Origin: Hysterium pulicare CBS 123377
Taxonomy: Eukaryota; Ascomycota; Dothideomycetes; Hysteriales; Hysteriaceae
Assembly (NCBI GenBank): GCA_000467715.1
Contig: AJFK01000039.1
Location: forward strand, 1-30,227
Reading direction: 5' to 3'
DNA: 30,227 nucleotides
Shown in pieces: positions 14,581 to 29,756 of this stretch. The notes beneath the pieces are model-generated. The model searched no databases and had not been told where the DNA came from. It saw nothing but the letters and a program-made list of their open reading frames with translations. How positions within the stretch are numbered: position 1 is the first letter of the stretch; every line of letters begins with the position of its first letter. Position numbers and translations under genes: made by a program.

Positions 14581-15987
14581 ATGAACTTTGCTCTTGCAAG
14601 ATCTCGCGCCATCCAAAGACATCTCTCCTTGAAAACCTCTGCTCTGCCCCGGTCGTTTACTACGTCATCAGCGAGAATGGCGAGCCTGGATATCAATTCG
14701 AAGTATAAGATGCCTTCAGGGCATGAGATTCCGGTTTTGGGGTTTGGCGTAAGATCATTTCTGTCTTCTAATTTATTCAATAAATCCACAAGATCCTGTC
14801 ATTTCATAATGTTGGGGAAATACACATGTTGTTCTATGTTGAAGTTGTAGTTTTGTCCATAGCATTCCATTGAATTGTGCGGCCATTGCTAATTTTTACC
14901 CCCCCTTTCTACCTCTGAATCCATGTTTTTCTAACATATCATGAACAGGTATATCAGACGTAGATCTCACGAGCATATCAACTCCTATATTTTCTAATCC
15001 CCCTACAGTCCCGCAGAAGTGACCGAAGACGTCGTCCAACATGCCATCAGCGTCGGCTACCGTCACGTAACCTCACCCTTTCCGCTTATTATCCAATTCG
15101 ACAACTAAACTCTTCGTAGATCGACTCAGCCGTTGGTTATCGAAACGAAGCCCCCTCAGCCGCCGGCATGAAGTCCTCCAAGATCCCCCGGGACCAGCTC
15201 TTCTTCACATCCAAAGTTCCGCCCCGCCAATTGTCGTACGAAAACGCAAAGTCTCACATCTCCAACACGCTCGAAGTCACCGGTCTCGACTACGTAGACC
15301 TCTATCTTCTGCATGCGCCCTACGGCGGTAAAGACGCCAGGATAGGAGCTTGGAAGGCCTTGGTCGAGGCGGTCGAGGAAGGGAAGATCAGAAGTATTGG
15401 GGTGAGTAATTATGGGGTCCATCATTTGGATGAGTTGGAGGAGTGGATTAAAGAGACGGAAGGGAAGGAAGGGAAAGGGAATGGGGGCGTCTTATGTGTT
15501 AATCAGATTGAATTGCATCCGTGGTTGGCGAGAAAAGATATCGTCGGGTGGTGTAAGGAGAGGGGTGTAATTCTTGAGGTAAATTCTGCAAATGACATCC
15601 AAATATCTGAGAGTATTGACCTCGAAACAGGCATATTCGCCCGTTGTACGAGCCACTAAGTCCGACGATCCACTCCTACTCCCCCTAGCAAAGAAATACA
15701 ACAAATCCACTTCTCAGATTCTGCTTCGCTGGAGCCTGCAAATGGTGAGCCTCTATGCCTAAATCCTTCTATGCTTGTTTTCTTTCTCCATCGCCGTCTC
15801 CTCTCATTATCCAATACATTGACTTTTCCACTAGGGTTTCGTTCCCCTCCCCAAATCAGTCACAAAATCCCGCATCGAAGAGAATGCACAAATCTTCGAT
15901 TTCTCGCTCACAGAGGAAGAAATGAAGAGTCTAGATACCGGGGTATATGAACCTTGTGCTTGGGATCCTACTGTCAGTCGTGATTAA
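14581..15987 (+). CDS. Aldo/keto reductase with mitochondrial-type leader
   Basis: Six exons (14581-14748, 14949-14959, 15009-15066, 15120-15578, 15631-15744, 15835-15987) give 320 residues. Introns are 200, 49, 53, 52 and 90 nt. Exon 2 is an 11-nt microexon that encodes VYQ plus two bases of the next Thr codon; without it the GFGVYQTPAEV motif is broken. The AKR catalytic tetrad is complete: Asp81 and Tyr86 ([11 protein letters not shown]), Lys111 (FFTSKVPP) and His144 ([10 protein letters not shown]). Further family motifs are [27 protein letters not shown] and [15 protein letters not shown]. The enzyme would reduce carbonyls with NADPH; the substrate is not readable. The first 32 residues are Arg/Ser-rich without acidic residues and end SFTTSSARM, like a mitochondrial presequence. 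A second ATG at codon 33 (MASLDINSK) would give a cytosolic form, so dual targeting is possible. Confidence 0.92.
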
Positions 15988-16841
15988 TGGTGGTAGGAAA
16001 CCGAGCCTTTGTTTCGAAAGTGTTTCTATTATCGGGATAGGAGTGAATAAGGGAAGAGTTCGTTGGTGTTGTCCCCGAGAGAGATTGGGTGGGCCGACGC
16101 TGCTTGGGGAGATAGGAGAGTTTAGAAAAAGGGTGTGTGCGAATAAACGACGTGCGAAAAAGCAAGGACAAACCTCGCCTACAGCATGATCTTATGTACT
16201 CACTTCGATGAGACCACGAGCATATGTCTTAGAGTCTGTCCTTTGTGATAACTTGCTATAACAATGAAGCAAAGCCCAAGCAAGACATGTCTAGATTTCT
16301 TGTCTCGGCAGCGGAGTTTGTTAGAACGTTCAAAGAAGGTGCAAGTTTGAACATTAGGATGCTATCGTAACTATCAGACATAGAAAAATATGAACTTTTA
16401 ATATATCAATTCAAAATATATTATGAAACTAACTAGACGAAAGCTGCAAGGCATGTGTTGGCCGATAGCACAATTCGAAGTTTCGACGGATAGTAGACAA
16501 GTCCAGAGAATTACCTGGCTAGAATGTTCAAATGTGCAGCTCTCCACTTTGGTGCAGGAATCAATGGTATCTCAGTCGTATCTCAGGCTCTCAAAAAAAG
16601 AAGAAGAAACAAAGAAAGCTCTGCCACGCATCAGGGACGAAGAGCTTATCGATAAGCAGCCGAGATCCTCACCACGTCATGTCCACTATCGAGTACAACC
16701 TAGAAAATATACACGACTACCCACTGTCTTCACTACTCTTCTCTTCCCCTTGGAAGCTCACAGAACACATCCAACCACAGTCTAGAGATTCGCCCCCAAA
16801 TCACCCCCACCATAATTCGAACCCGCCCTTGAACACCCACC
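15988..16841. other. Intergenic with one AGACATGTCT palindrome
   Basis: An 854-bp gap between the aldo/keto reductase stop and the Dom34 ATG. It holds the palindrome at 16283-16292 and an AT-rich patch near 16390-16425. The frame upstream of 16842 stays open for about 100 codons and runs into the Dom34 intron, but it is not conserved Dom34 sequence and should not be annotated as its N-terminus. Confidence 0.6.
16283..16292. repeat. 10-bp palindrome AGACATGTCT, copy 4
   Basis: Exact copy of the palindrome at 885, 2026 and 2146, about 300 bp past the aldo/keto reductase stop and 550 bp before the Dom34 start. Confidence 0.6.
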
Positions 16842-18115
16842 ATGCGACTTCTCAGACAGCAAATCGACCTGAAATCTGGCTCTGGAACAGCAACACTGCT
16901 TCCAGAAGAGCCCGAAGACATGGTATTCCCCCATCGCTCCTTCAGCCTGTCCTCTTTACTGATCTCTTCCAGTGGCACGCCTACAACCTCATCCAACCCC
17001 ATGACCTCCTCCGTGCCCGCGCCATGCGCCGCATAACCAAAGAATCCGACTCCGGCTCCGTAGCCTCAACGCGCATACCCATAGACCTGACCATCTCCGT
17101 CACTTCGACTGACTTCGACATCAACGCGGGCCAATTACATGTCGCAGGCAAAGTAGCTGTAGAATCCGAGCATGTAAAACTGGGATCATATCACACTTTA
17201 GATTTAGAGCTGCAGAGGAAATTTACGATAGAAAAGGGAGATGGATGGGATAGTGTTGCGATAGAGCAGTTGAAGGAGGCGTGTGATACGACGAAGAGGG
17301 CGGAGCTGTGGGCTGTAGTCATGCAAGACGGACTGGCGAATATATGTTTAATAACCGAACATCAGACTATCCTGCGTCAAAGAGTCGAAATGCCCATACC
17401 GCGAAAACGAAAAGGTGGACTCGATGGCCATGAGAAGGCTCAACAGAAATTCTTCTCGACAACATTACAAACGCTTCTTCGACATCTCGACTTGTCTGGC
17501 TCGTCCACTTCTGACAAGACTACCCCGTTATTGCTTGCTTCGCCAGGCTTCACAGCAAACTCGTTTCTAAGCTTCATCAAATCGCACGCAACATCCACAA
17601 CAAATAAATCCCTCCTTGCCCTTATCCCCTCAATCCTAATCGCACACTCCTCTTCCGGCCATGTCCATGCTCTTGCCGAGGTCCTCTCCTCACCACCTAT
17701 AATGGCCAAACTCTCAGACACAAAGTACGCACGAGAAACAGCGCTCATGGACCGCCTTCTGAAATATGTTCGTGACGACGATGGACGGGCATGGTACGGG
17801 CCGAAGGAAGTGGAGAAAGCTGTAGAAAAGGGCGCTGTAGGGAGAGGCGGCGGGGTCTTGCTGATAAGCAACGCGCTATTCAGGGCACAGAGCGTCGCCG
17901 AGAGGAAGAGATGGGTAGGTCTTGTTGATAGAGTGAGAGATGTTGAAGGCGGGGAAGTGAGAGTACTGAGCTCATTACACGAAAGCGGGAAGAGGCTAGA
18001 GAATTTGGGGAATGTAGCTGCTATTTTGACATTTCCTCTCACGGATCTAGACGAGGACGACGAAGCAGAAGAAGCGAATAGCGGTGGAGCAGCTAATGAC
18101 GATATGATAATATGA
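16842..18115 (+). CDS. DOM34: Dom34/Pelota ribosome-rescue factor
   Basis: Two exons, 16842-16922 and 16973-18115, encode 407 residues (yeast and human proteins are about 385). The 50-nt intron has donor GTATTC and acceptor TTCCAG. ATG 16842 gives MRLLRQQIDLKSGSG and EEPEDM, continuing WHAYNLIQPHDLLRARAMRR, the conserved N-terminal Sm-like domain of Pelota. Further signatures are RIPIDLTISV, LRQRVEMPIPRKRKG at the start of the eRF1-like central domain, LLLASPGFTANSFL, and the C-terminal domain with AWYGPKEVEKAVEKGAV and LLISNALFRAQ. No GGQ motif is present, as expected, since Dom34 splits stalled ribosomes with Hbs1 without peptide release. The C-terminus is acidic, as in homologues. The gene converges on the minus-strand gene at 18208 with 92 bp between the stops. 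Confidence 0.95.
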
Positions 18116-26494: not shown

Positions 26495-28513
26495 TTACTC
26501 GTCGCTCGTATACATATGCACGAATTCCCACATAGCTCTCACGACCGCAACTCCACCACCCTGCGTCTCCACGGTCCTGCCGCGGCCTCTATCATTCAGG
26601 TCTCCACCTCTTCTTTCTCCCACATTGTTCCTAGGTAGTGGCGACGTTCGCATGTTGTCATATCTGTATTCATCTTCGCCGTTCGCCAACGTGGTAAGTG
26701 GTTCGAATGCGTCGCCAGCCGGGGAGTTTCTATAATCTTCTGCACCCTTCGGCAAGACGGGTGCTTCTCCCTTAGAAATCTTATCTTGCCGCTCCTGATT
26801 GTCCGCTCCAGCTTCTACACCCCACCACGTACCGAATCGACCCCGCTCATCCCTCGTGCTCAGTGCCGCTTGAGCGTTATGTACCACCCAAGGAGCGTAC
26901 TCTTTACAGCTTTGGCGGTGCAGCATAGCTGCCTCGCGGCTTGCGCCGTGCGTCTTACCCGGAACCTGCGCTGTGAGCGGTAGGGGCGTGCAGAAGCGGA
27001 TCAGATGGTGGAAGAAGATGCCTTTGAAGGTCTGGCCATTTTGCGAGCAGGTGCCTGAAGGATCGCATATTTCTGTTAAGATGCCATTGGAGCCAAGACC
27101 GGACCAATCAGGCAAGACGGTTATGGGTTGTTGCGAGAGGTCGTCGAAGTCCCTTCGCTCGAGGGTGATATCTGAGAAGGATACTGGGGTTAGGGTGGGA
27201 TCTTCCCAGCCTGTGGCTCGGATGACGTTCCGCACAAGCTCGTGCCCGTCATTGAGATAGGAAAGATTGCCTGTTCCTTCCCATAGCCCGCGCAGACCGG
27301 AGAGCAGGACACCTTGATTGTAGGTATATACCATTTCGTTTCTTACATCGCATTTGTTTGTCGATTGGTTTGTGCCATAGTCGCGGATGTGGAACCCATC
27401 GACATAGAGGCCTTTGTCATTGGTCATACCAGAGTTCTTGAGCCAATTGTATCCATTGATAGCAGACTGTAGGTATATCGGGTCGTGTGGGACAGCGGGG
27501 CCATAGGGCGAGTCACAGTGGCCATCACCTTCCTCGGATAGAGTATGGTAGTCGGTATTGTTTTGTCCGTCTTTGCCAGACATAAAAGGTGAACAATTCT
27601 TGTCGCCTGGGAAGTGGAGGTACATGCCTACGCTCGCGGCGATCCACAATTCATTTGTAATAGCATTCTTGTAGGGTAGCCTGGTATGCGGGTTCCAATT
27701 CATGCCACCTCCGCAAATATCCCAGTCCCAACCTTTGCTCGCAAGATCGTAGAAGACTCGGGCACGATGTGCGAAGGCTGAGGTGAATTGCTTGCCATAC
27801 CATTTCCCTCCGCCGGTGGACTCGTGGGTCTGAGGGTAGTGAAGCTCATCGTGTTCGTTGATGAAGTGAATGTTCTCGAGCCAGCCAAGAACGACCCACA
27901 ACATGTCATCGTAAGCTTGAGTACGAATTGCAAAATGGTCTTCCCCAAAAAAGTACGTGATTGCTTGCGAGAAGTATTTGTTGATCTCATTCTCGATCCT
28001 CTGCCCTTCCAAACTCAACTCTTGATCTTGCCCATCCACCCTAGGATTGTGGTCTGCCGAGAGCGTGCCTGGCATTATGTAGCTCAGCGATCGAGTGAGC
28101 GAGTATAGAGCGCCGGAGACATGCGTTCCCATAACTGCAGCAGTCCAATCTATGGCATCTGGCCACTTTCCAAGCCAAATCTTGAAGAAGTTATTCTGCA
28201 TTGTTTCGAGCGCATGGTGGAGTTCTTCGAGGGAGTTTAAAGGAAGTTCGAACTTTGATATGACCGTTTCTGATGGTTCTTCGAGGCGGAATACAGCTTG
28301 GTTATCAGGCCGAAAGGCGTCTTGAAGTTGTAAATGCTCTGTCGTGCTTTGCGTTTGCGTTTGCTCATTCCGCAGACTTGGTGCTGGTATTGCCTTTGCT
28401 GGTTCGGGTCGAATTGCGGTTTGACTGGACACATAGACCAGCGAAAAGAGTGTTACAAGCAGTAACATGCATGGCCGGAGTATGTGCCGGCCTAGATATG
28501 TCCGTAAAATCAT
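26495..28513 (-). CDS. Secreted glycoside hydrolase family 76 (alpha-1,6-mannanase-like)
   Basis: Single exon of 672 residues, ATG 28513. An N-terminal hydrophobic stretch (PCMLLLVTLFSLVYVSSQ, about residues 14-31) looks like a signal peptide. The GH76 core spans about residues 110-440: YDDMLWVVLGWLENIHF carries the paired aspartates (Asp202-Asp203) that are catalytic in this family, and GWDWDICGGGMNWNP followed by LPYKNAITNELWIAASVGMY is the conserved active-site region. YTYNQGVLLSGLRGLWEGTG also fits. GH76 enzymes act on alpha-1,6-mannan; fungal Dfg5/Dcw1 members work in cell-wall assembly. No C-terminal hydrophobic tail for a GPI anchor is seen, so secretion rather than anchoring is likely. 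It is longer than usual (about 450-500) because of a Gln-rich N-terminal segment and a C-terminal extension with a polar linker. Confidence 0.9.
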   Translation of the reverse strand: MILRTYLGRHILRPCMLLLVTLFSLVYVSSQTAIRPEPAKAIPAPSLRNEQTQTQSTTEHLQLQDAFRPDNQAVFRLEEPSETVISKFELPLNSLEELHHALETMQNNFFKIWLGKWPDAIDWTAAVMGTHVSGALYSLTRSLSYIMPGTLSADHNPRVDGQDQELSLEGQRIENEINKYFSQAITYFFGEDHFAIRTQAYDDMLWVVLGWLENIHFINEHDELHYPQTHESTGGGKWYGKQFTSAFAHRARVFYDLASKGWDWDICGGGMNWNPHTRLPYKNAITNELWIAASVGMYLHFPGDKNCSPFMSGKDGQNNTDYHTLSEEGDGHCDSPYGPAVPHDPIYLQSAINGYNWLKNSGMTNDKGLYVDGFHIRDYGTNQSTNKCDVRNEMVYTYNQGVLLSGLRGLWEGTGNLSYLNDGHELVRNVIRATGWEDPTLTPVSFSDITLERRDFDDLSQQPITVLPDWSGLGSNGILTEICDPSGTCSQNGQTFKGIFFHHLIRFCTPLPLTAQVPGKTHGASREAAMLHRQSCKEYAPWVVHNAQAALSTRDERGRFGTWWGVEAGADNQERQDKISKGEAPVLPKGAEDYRNSPAGDAFEPLTTLANGEDEYRYDNMRTSPLPRNNVGERRGGDLNDRGRGRTVETQGGGVAVVRAMWEFVHMYTSDE

Positions 28514-28846: not shown

Positions 28847-28853
28847 AAAAAAA
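28847..28853 (-). terminator. RNA polymerase III terminator (T7) of the tRNA-Leu gene
   Basis: Seven T residues on the minus strand, 11 nt downstream of the discriminator base at 28865. No T-run longer than four occurs inside the split gene, including both introns, so this is the first competent terminator. Confidence 0.75.
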
Positions 28854-28879
28854 GATATTTATGTTGACAAGAGTGGGAT

Positions 28880-28936
28880 CTTCAACTGTATGTCAGTTGA
28901 TTGTCATTTGAAACACCACAGATACTGGGAACTTAC
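28880..28936 (-). other. tRNA intron 2 (T-loop), spliceosomal-like
   Basis: 57 nt inserted in the T-loop after TTCGA. It begins with consensus donor GTAAGT and has CAACTGACA as likely branch site. The end that rebuilds the T-arm is TTGAAG (28880); the preceding TACAG at 28886 would leave six extra bases in the T-loop. A one- or two-base shift also yields a valid T-loop (TTCGAGT), but without GT-AG ends. Confidence 0.7.
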
Positions 28937-28979
28937 TCGAACCCACGCATCTTTCGATACTAGCACCTGAAGCTAGCGC

Positions 28980-29037
28980 CTGTTGACTGGTTAGTATAAA
29001 ATTATAGGATGAATACAATTAAATACGGCTGACTAAC
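28980..29037 (-). other. tRNA intron 1 (D-stem), spliceosomal-like
   Basis: 58 nt inserted between bases of the 3' strand of the D-stem. It begins GTTAGT after AAG, contains TACTAAC near the 3' end (consensus branch site) and ends CAACAG. A one-base shift would give the same product, but only this placement obeys GT-AG. GTTAGT and ACTAAC are also exactly complementary, so the intron could fold on itself. Confidence 0.75.
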
Positions 29038-29756
29038 CTTGGACCGCTCGGCCATCTTGCCTGCATTTCAAGACTCTCTGTCTTAAAATTAATATATTGG
29101 TGGTTGCGCATATGGTGAAAACGTTTTGAGGCCATCTCGGAACGAGGTGGGGATCAGACGGCTGATAACCGGGCAGAAATGGATTAGCGAACCAGAGTAT
29201 GCAAGTGCGGGGCTAGCCGGACCGGAAAATCAACCGATACCTCGTGGCACGCGTAGTAACGTGAACTTCTTACGGAGAGGTTGAGATGGGATGGGGCACT
29301 GGGAAAGGGGGCGGCCATTCTATCATGATGCTAGAGGAGGTTCTTTCTTCCGCTCATTCTCATTGGATCTGAAAATGAGACTTCGCGAATAACATCAATC
29401 GTGGAAAGGAATGCCGAGAATAAAGGCTTTCATAAAGTTGAGACCCGACGTAAGAGGGCATATATATTAAGGTGTCATTATTGGATCAGTTATAAAAACT
29501 ATGCTCCGCTGGCTTGGCAGATAGAGCCAATTGCTTCTCTTTACTCGACTCCAGAGGCTGTCTGATCCCACGTCCAGGATATATATATCTAAGTCTGATT
29601 GGACTCCCTAGGTTATATGACTATCTACTTCTCTTCGGAGTGTAGATTCGTTGAGCGTATATAGCATTACTCAATCGAATGGCTGAGTGCACGTACTGAC
29701 TTAGTTCCCAATTGGATCAGTGGTTGAGTATCTAATGCATAAGAGTTTTGCTAGTC

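Follow-up and report, generated by a model that had tools for sequence, protein, structure and literature searches.

Candidate spliceosomal introns in a tRNA-Leu(CAG) gene and in further nuclear tRNA genes of Hysterium pulicare

We analyzed a stretch of 30,227 nucleotides (nt) from Hysterium pulicare CBS 123377 (GenBank assembly GCA_000467715.1, contig AJFK01000039.1, positions 1 to 30,227 of the forward strand), which is referred to as a whole as the window. It carries on its minus strand a transfer RNA (tRNA) gene, tRNA-Leu(CAG), that is interrupted by two inserts resembling introns of messenger RNA (mRNA) precursors. Together with 16 similar inserts in 12 further tRNA genes of the same genome, these suggest that the spliceosome acts on tRNA precursors in this fungus. 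The features of the window gene are listed below; all tRNA positions, here and for the other genes, were assigned by hand from the exons. Pol III stands for RNA polymerase III.

28865..29061, minus strand: tRNA-Leu(CAG) gene, 197 nt unspliced and 82 nt mature, called by ARAGORN on the spliced sequence
29038..29061, minus strand: exon 1 (tRNA positions 1-23)
28980..29037, minus strand: putative intron 1, 58 nt, GTTAGT...CAG, between positions 23 and 24 (3' strand of the D stem)
28990..28996, minus strand: TACTAAC of intron 1, resembling a branch site, with the branch A at 28991 and the 3' splice site 11 nt further on
28937..28979, minus strand: exon 2 (positions 24-58), anticodon CAG at 28969-28967
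28880..28936, minus strand: putative intron 2, 57 nt, GTAAGT...AAG, between positions 58 and 59 (T loop)
28892..28896, minus strand: CTGAC of intron 2, resembling a branch site, with the branch A at 28893 and the 3' splice site 13 nt further on
28882..28900, minus strand: hairpin of intron 2, 7 base pairs (bp), TCAACTG-ACATA-CAGTTGA, enclosing an unused upstream CAG
28865..28879, minus strand: exon 3 (positions 59-73)
29044..29054, minus strand: Pol III A box TGGCCGAGCGG, intact, 11/11 positions
28933..28943, minus strand: B-box remnant GGTTCGAGTAA of the unspliced gene, 9/11 positions, the intron GT occupying the N and Y positions
28847..28853, minus strand: run of seven T, Pol III terminator-like, 11 nt past the gene
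29091..29096, minus strand: TATATT, TATA-like as read from the sequence, about 30-35 nt upstream of the gene and possibly linked to Pol III

Both inserts had been described in an earlier note on this sequence, and their coordinates and lengths (58 nt, 29037-28980; 57 nt, 28936-28880) turned out to be exact, as did their GT...AG ends, the donors GTTAGT and GTAAGT, and the branch-like TACTAAC and CTGAC. Their removal indeed restores a class II tRNA, whose acceptor stem has 7 bp, whose T stem has 5 bp and whose anticodon is CAG. Five versions of the gene were submitted to ARAGORN, which called the doubly spliced one tRNA-Leu(cag). It made no call on the unspliced gene, with intron 1 alone removed, or with intron 2 cut at the upstream CAG, and when intron 2 alone was removed it returned a nonsensical selenocysteine tRNA (tRNA-SeC) with a 58-nt insert. 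The earlier note had flagged the acceptor AAG of intron 2 as weaker than this upstream CAG. The choice can be explained by the position of the CAG, which lies within the hairpin and only 7 nt past the branch A, nearer than any of the 18 acceptors used (9-18 nt); the AG that follows it is that of AAG, 13 nt past the branch A.

ARAGORN makes calls leniently: when up to two segments around the window gene were removed in 250 combinations, 17 gave some call, four of which were Leu(cag) with other ends. The exact intron ends therefore rest on the standard stems, the TTCGAAT T loop and the standard lengths of the product. As a control for chance, no tRNA call spanning the removed segments was obtained in 400 random 240-nt sequence pieces (695 removals) or, under the looser rules of the 250 combinations, in 300 random 250-nt pieces (1004 removals), each random piece offering fewer possible removals than the real genes (mean 3.3 in the control with 300). 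When the raw window was scanned, no tRNA was reported by ARAGORN or by Rfam at gathering cut-offs, nor did Rfam report one when the window gene was scanned permissively. A snoR18 match on the opposite strand of the gene (22.6 bits compared to a cut-off of 55) was taken as chance.

In the genome as a whole, we found 18 inserts in 13 tRNA genes, located between the following tRNA positions:

tRNA-Leu(CAG), window: 23/24 and 58/59
tRNA-Ala(AGC), contig C471: 58/59
tRNA-Leu(AAG), contig C244: 28/29
tRNA-Gly(TCC), contig C578: 47/48
tRNA-Arg(CCT), contig C133: 15/16, 23/24 and 58/59
tentative tRNA-Gly(CCC), contig C353: 53/54
tRNA-Ile(AAT), contig C478, locus L149: 21/22
tRNA-Val(CAC), contig C160: 11/12 and 24/25
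tRNA-Tyr(GTA), contig C227: 31/32 and 61/62
tRNA-Ala(CGC), contig C386: 25/26
tentative tRNA-Trp(CCA), contig C536: 20/21
tRNA-Arg(ACG), contig C478: 31/32
tRNA-Lys(TTT), contig C80, locus L150: 53/54

The inserts occupy 13 distinct positions. Three genes have an insert at 58/59, and two genes each have one at 23/24, at 31/32 and at 53/54; none of the 18 lies at the canonical position 37/38. After splicing, all 13 genes were called as tRNAs with a complete cloverleaf by ARAGORN, two of them with a doubtful isotype. Unspliced, seven received no call and three a wrong one, and for Gly(TCC), Ala(CGC) and Arg(ACG) the correct anticodon was reported with an enlarged anticodon-loop intron. The Rfam tRNA model matched the unspliced Ile(AAT) gene with 48.1 bits and placed the insert in the D loop unaided.

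The cleanest single case is a pair of tRNA-Ala(AGC) genes with an identical 72-nt mature sequence, of which the copy on C78 is intronless and the copy on C471 carries an exact 50-nt insert at 58/59. The mature sequence is thus known free of any assumption about splicing. This insert reads GTACGT...TACTAACAGATAATTAG, contains TACTAAC and ends with TAG; its ends cannot slide, as a shift by one base alters the product.

Many tRNA genes of this genome possess classical anticodon-loop introns (9-34 nt according to ARAGORN). They co-occur with introns of the GT-AG type in Leu(AAG), Gly(TCC), Val(CAC), Tyr and Ala(CGC) and, as judged by eye, in the tentative Gly(CCC) and Trp genes. A precursor bearing both kinds would consequently need both splicing machines.

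The above counts come from a genome of 37.2 Mb in 596 contigs and from an incomplete census, in which genes were sought by patterns and profile. The search with Rfam RF00005 gave 23 matches at E 1 and 27 at E 10 among the best 63 of 1229 candidates that were scored. T-arm patterns, T-loop patterns containing a splice donor and an A-box pattern were additionally used. We read the sequence of 23/23, 15/21 and 23/23 T-arm matches and of 12/12 and 29/36 donor-containing T-loop matches, the unread ones being the least tRNA-like or the last in the list. The A-box pattern, which disallows common D-loop spacings, had 51 matches, of which 50 were read and one was a real tRNA; it supports no conclusion. 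Besides the 13 interrupted genes, the census contains 25 well-formed genes without insert (13/38 interrupted), and the ratio becomes 11/36 when the window gene and Arg(CCT), which was reached only by the donor-containing pattern, are left out. ARAGORN supports 24 of the 25 insert-free genes, and Pro(TGG) in L019, on which it made no call, was included on the basis of 42.9 bits in Rfam and reading by eye. Several insert-free isotypes, namely Lys(CTT), Tyr, Gln(CTG) and Met, were reassigned from the anticodon loop.

An insert-free gene also exists for Ala(AGC), Tyr and Ile(AAT), as well as for Gly(CCC) if the gene on C353 is of that isotype. For nine isoacceptors, the partial census contains an interrupted gene only: Leu(CAG), Leu(AAG), Gly(TCC), Arg(CCT), Arg(ACG), Ala(CGC), Lys(TTT), Val(CAC) and the tentative Trp. 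As for the second intact tRNA-Leu(CAG) gene that the earlier note had brought up, none appeared in a non-exhaustive search by DNA similarity and by a class II D-arm pattern, which also misses the Leu(AAG) gene. In the similarity search of its own genome the window gene matched only itself, and the three genomic matches of the pattern were the window gene and two places without a visible tRNA. Applied to contigs of viruses and prokaryotes, the Leu D-arm pattern matched 22 and at least 117 stretches, and the genome records among the matches listed were bacterial.

Initiator tRNA-Met was unmatched in the genome both by its usual anticodon arm and by its T arm with at most one mismatch; its gene may be interrupted in the searched arms or may have a different sequence. 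Six Asp-like or poorly formed sequences, including L111, were excluded from all counts. Five Asp-like sequences, L020, L022, L023, L021 and L111 (contigs C129, C63, C387 and C493), form a loose, partly malformed group, some with similar flanks, which perhaps represents a tRNA-derived repeat or a second organism. Two tRNA-Glu(CTC) genes, L140 on C53 and L143 on C250, appeared identical by eye in their mature sequence, with classical introns of 23 and 12 nt, respectively, according to ARAGORN.

The 18 inserts share the signals of spliceosomal introns, and their donors, branch sites, spacing between branch and acceptor, and length are those typical of mRNA introns in fungi. Their ends are GT-AG in 17 cases and GC-AG in one, and their lengths are 47, 48, 50, 50, 51 (six inserts), 52 (four inserts), 57, 57, 58 and 78 nt. 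Within their last 26 nt, 15/18 introns contain the motif CTRAY, compared to a mean of 1.96 in shuffled sequences, and none of 2000 shuffles reached 15. CTAAC was present in 10/18 (0.61 in shuffles) and the more relaxed YTRAY in all 18 (4.18 in shuffles). The distance from the branch A to the intron end is 9-18 nt, and 9-14 nt in all introns but one. In mRNA introns, the 3' splice site is the first suitable AG after the branch point. In all 18 inserts, the tRNA fold demands as acceptor the first AG that lies 9 nt or more past the branch A, and in five a nearer AG, 3-7 nt past the branch A, is skipped. The 78-nt intron of tRNA-Lys(TTT) contains two inverted repeats discernible by eye, one with CTAAC in or beside its loop, which possibly shortens the distance between branch site and acceptor.

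The earlier note had also held that the inserts match the protein-gene introns of the window in length and signals. Four such introns, in two genes, are supported by homology:

15067-15119, 15579-15630 and 15745-15834: introns of an aldo/keto reductase gene, 53, 52 and 90 nt
3907-3833, minus strand: intron of an endoplasmic reticulum (ER) lumen receptor gene, 75 nt, with CTGAC as in intron 2 of tRNA-Leu(CAG)

The likeness held in part: two of the four are close in length to the tRNA inserts, and the other two measure 90 and 75 nt. Their branch-like sequences are CTAAA, TTGAC, TTGAC and CTGAC (in introns of 53, 52, 90 and 75 nt, respectively), and their removal raised the Pfam score of one gene from 64.9 to 127.8 bits and that of the other from 74 to 152.6 bits. 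The range of 47-58 nt covered by 17/18 tRNA inserts is thus near that of two of the four introns in this small sample. A de novo count of introns in 324 kb of this genome gave 54, which is below the reversed control of 128.

We next consider the origin of the inserts. When compared with each other, the best pair had a similarity score of 18, and the mean maximum in 40 shuffles was 18.6. As mutual similarity among the 18 introns does not exceed that among shuffled sequences, the introner hypothesis was rejected, and they do not stem from a fresh burst of one introner. That unrelated isoacceptors carry an intron at one and the same site suggests that introns were gained independently more than once.

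Features of Pol III genes are largely retained. A run of at least five T lies within 45 nt downstream of all 13 genes, and the longest T run inside any of the 18 introns is at most four. This pattern is consistent with Pol III, without being strong, since introns this short would hold few such runs anyway. In the unspliced state, 11 of the 13 genes have an unbroken A box, and all 13 keep the B box at 9 or more of its 11 positions, because introns in the T arm are confined to 53/54, 58/59 or 61/62. At 53/54, the AG of the intron replaces the exon bases that precede TTCGA; at 58/59, the donor GT fills the N and Y positions. Promoter function may hence limit where an intron can be retained.

The exact restoration of tRNAs, the splice signals, their recurrence in 13 genes, the kept promoter boxes and the terminator-like runs point to inserts that are U2-type spliceosomal introns in Pol III tRNA genes and that would be removed by the spliceosome. 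We assign this explanation, which is one of two that the earlier note had offered for maturation and is favoured by the 18 inserts in 13 genes with shared signals, a probability of roughly 0.86. Ordinary U2-type introns would have entered nuclear tRNA genes transcribed by Pol III, transcription would run through them to the downstream T run, and the spliceosome would excise each intron after recognizing its GT donor, its CTRAY branch site and, slightly beyond that site, the first AG. In genes that also bear a classical intron at 37/38, the tRNA endonuclease would be needed afterwards, and the window gene would require two spliceosomal events. Transcription by Pol III, spliceosomal removal, the order of these steps and the function of the product are what we infer from the genomic sequence.

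Several results weigh against this explanation. The limit of 9 nt for the acceptor was chosen from distances already seen, and the branch site of three introns is YTRAY only, so that the informative part of the acceptor pattern is that no other AG intervenes past the limit. Moreover, the boundaries were decoded with GT-AG in mind, and the first solver demanded a branch motif. The isotypes of the genes on C353 and C536 are tentative, their ARAGORN labels being Phe and Leu, and the A box is broken in the unspliced Arg(CCT) and Val(CAC) genes. The Rfam tRNA model matched only two of seven interrupted loci tested at E 1, Ile(AAT) and, partially and with 21.2 bits, Lys(TTT); among the remaining five, one gave a T-arm piece under the transfer-messenger RNA (tmRNA) model and four gave nothing. 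Finally, a 4-bp central helix of the bulge-helix-bulge (BHB) motif is possible in 3/18 introns in the GT-AG register (permutation mean 0.84, with 577 of 20000 permutations reaching 3), and in 4/18 if the ends are allowed to slide.

This last result bears on the second explanation, that the inserts are ectopic introns of the archaeal or red algal type, cut by a tRNA endonuclease of relaxed site choice and rejoined by tRNA ligase. According to the available excerpts of two papers, introns off 37/38, often several per gene, are known from archaea, the red alga Cyanidioschyzon merolae and the nucleomorph of Guillardia theta; those of archaea have a BHB that is cut by the tRNA endonuclease, C. merolae is discussed likewise, and many ectopic introns of G. 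theta lack a defined BHB (PMC3978253, PMC8450103). Here, a full BHB with central, outer and inner helices was found in none of the 18 introns in the 30 registers tested, which makes the tRNA endonuclease an unlikely cutter, and the inserts have GT-AG ends and a branch site in addition. These ends, the CTRAY motif (15/18 compared to 2.0) and the first-AG pattern are left unexplained by an endonuclease, and the classical anticodon-loop introns of the same genome belong to a different size class. The mild excess of central helices is outweighed by the splice signals, and we regard endonuclease cleavage as improbable.

Slightly less credit still is due to the idea that all interrupted genes, that of the window included, are dead copies with fossil inserts that are never spliced. 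The insert-free genes for Ala(AGC), Tyr, Ile(AAT) and perhaps Gly(CCC) would fit with it. However, the 13 genes retain their stems, most promoter boxes and terminator-like runs, nine isoacceptors are represented by interrupted genes only as far as the incomplete census goes, and retention of splice signals is not expected in a dead copy. Embedding of the tRNAs in long transcripts of RNA polymerase II (Pol II), within which they would be spliced, would spare the spliceosome from acting on Pol III RNA, but it is the least plausible of all given the runs of at least five T after 13/13 genes, their absence from the introns and the mostly kept internal boxes.

Returning to spliceosomal introns in Pol III genes, we searched for precedents. 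Among the entries listed, no earlier report of such introns in tRNA genes was found in the literature searched, which mostly excludes subscription journals and preprints. The nuclear ribosomal DNA (rDNA) of lichen fungi contains spliceosomal introns, for which Bhattacharya et al. (2000) is cited. Excerpts of PMC8527467 describe lichen rDNA with spliceosomal introns as well as degenerate introns of group I; one spliceosomal intron of 57 bp is removed by yeast from rRNA, which RNA polymerase I (Pol I) makes. According to an excerpt of PMC6652019, rDNA introns are numerous in lichen fungi. As in the rDNA of lichen ascomycetes, introns of the mRNA type would thus reside in a non-coding gene that is not transcribed by Pol II (PMC8527467). 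In contrast to that case of rRNA, Pol I and, in the excerpts, few spliceosomal introns, the present one concerns Pol III tRNA genes, with 18 introns in 13 genes. The U6 gene of fission yeast, whose RNA is made by Pol III, has an mRNA-type intron according to an excerpt of PMC10484740, and so provides a fungal Pol III transcript with a spliceosomal intron; unlike U6, tRNAs are not components of the spliceosome. The classical eukaryotic introns at 37/38, which several times stand alongside the new kind here, differ from it in position, are shorter and need neither GT-AG ends nor a branch site.

According to the excerpts available, tRNAs are spliced independently of the spliceosome (PMC13149111), and a eukaryotic tRNA gene has one intron at most, non-canonical ones being sought with an archaeal model (PMC8450103). 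Spliceosomal introns in many tRNA genes would break both rules. Considered jointly, the data make it likely that the spread of such introns has reached about one third of the nuclear tRNA genes, with up to three introns per gene at 13 positions, limited mainly by the need for readable Pol III boxes. If so, translation in this fungus would depend on the spliceosome, and several tRNAs would need two unrelated splicing machines in succession. The system would offer a natural test of whether Pol II, a cap or a certain exon length is required by the spliceosome, of intron gain where the reading frame is irrelevant, and of a splicing load that throttles translation, as has been proposed for lichen rDNA introns in the accessible part of PMC8527467. 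Since the window gene and several others were missed in their unspliced form by ARAGORN and Rfam, such genes may be overlooked elsewhere.

Two further open reading frames of the window were noted. The long frame at positions 16532-18115 on the plus strand encodes each of the three domains of eRF1 and is Dom34/Pelota-like or eRF1-like, and positions 26495-28513 on the minus strand contain a GH76 glycoside hydrolase frame that adjoins the tRNA-Leu(CAG) gene.
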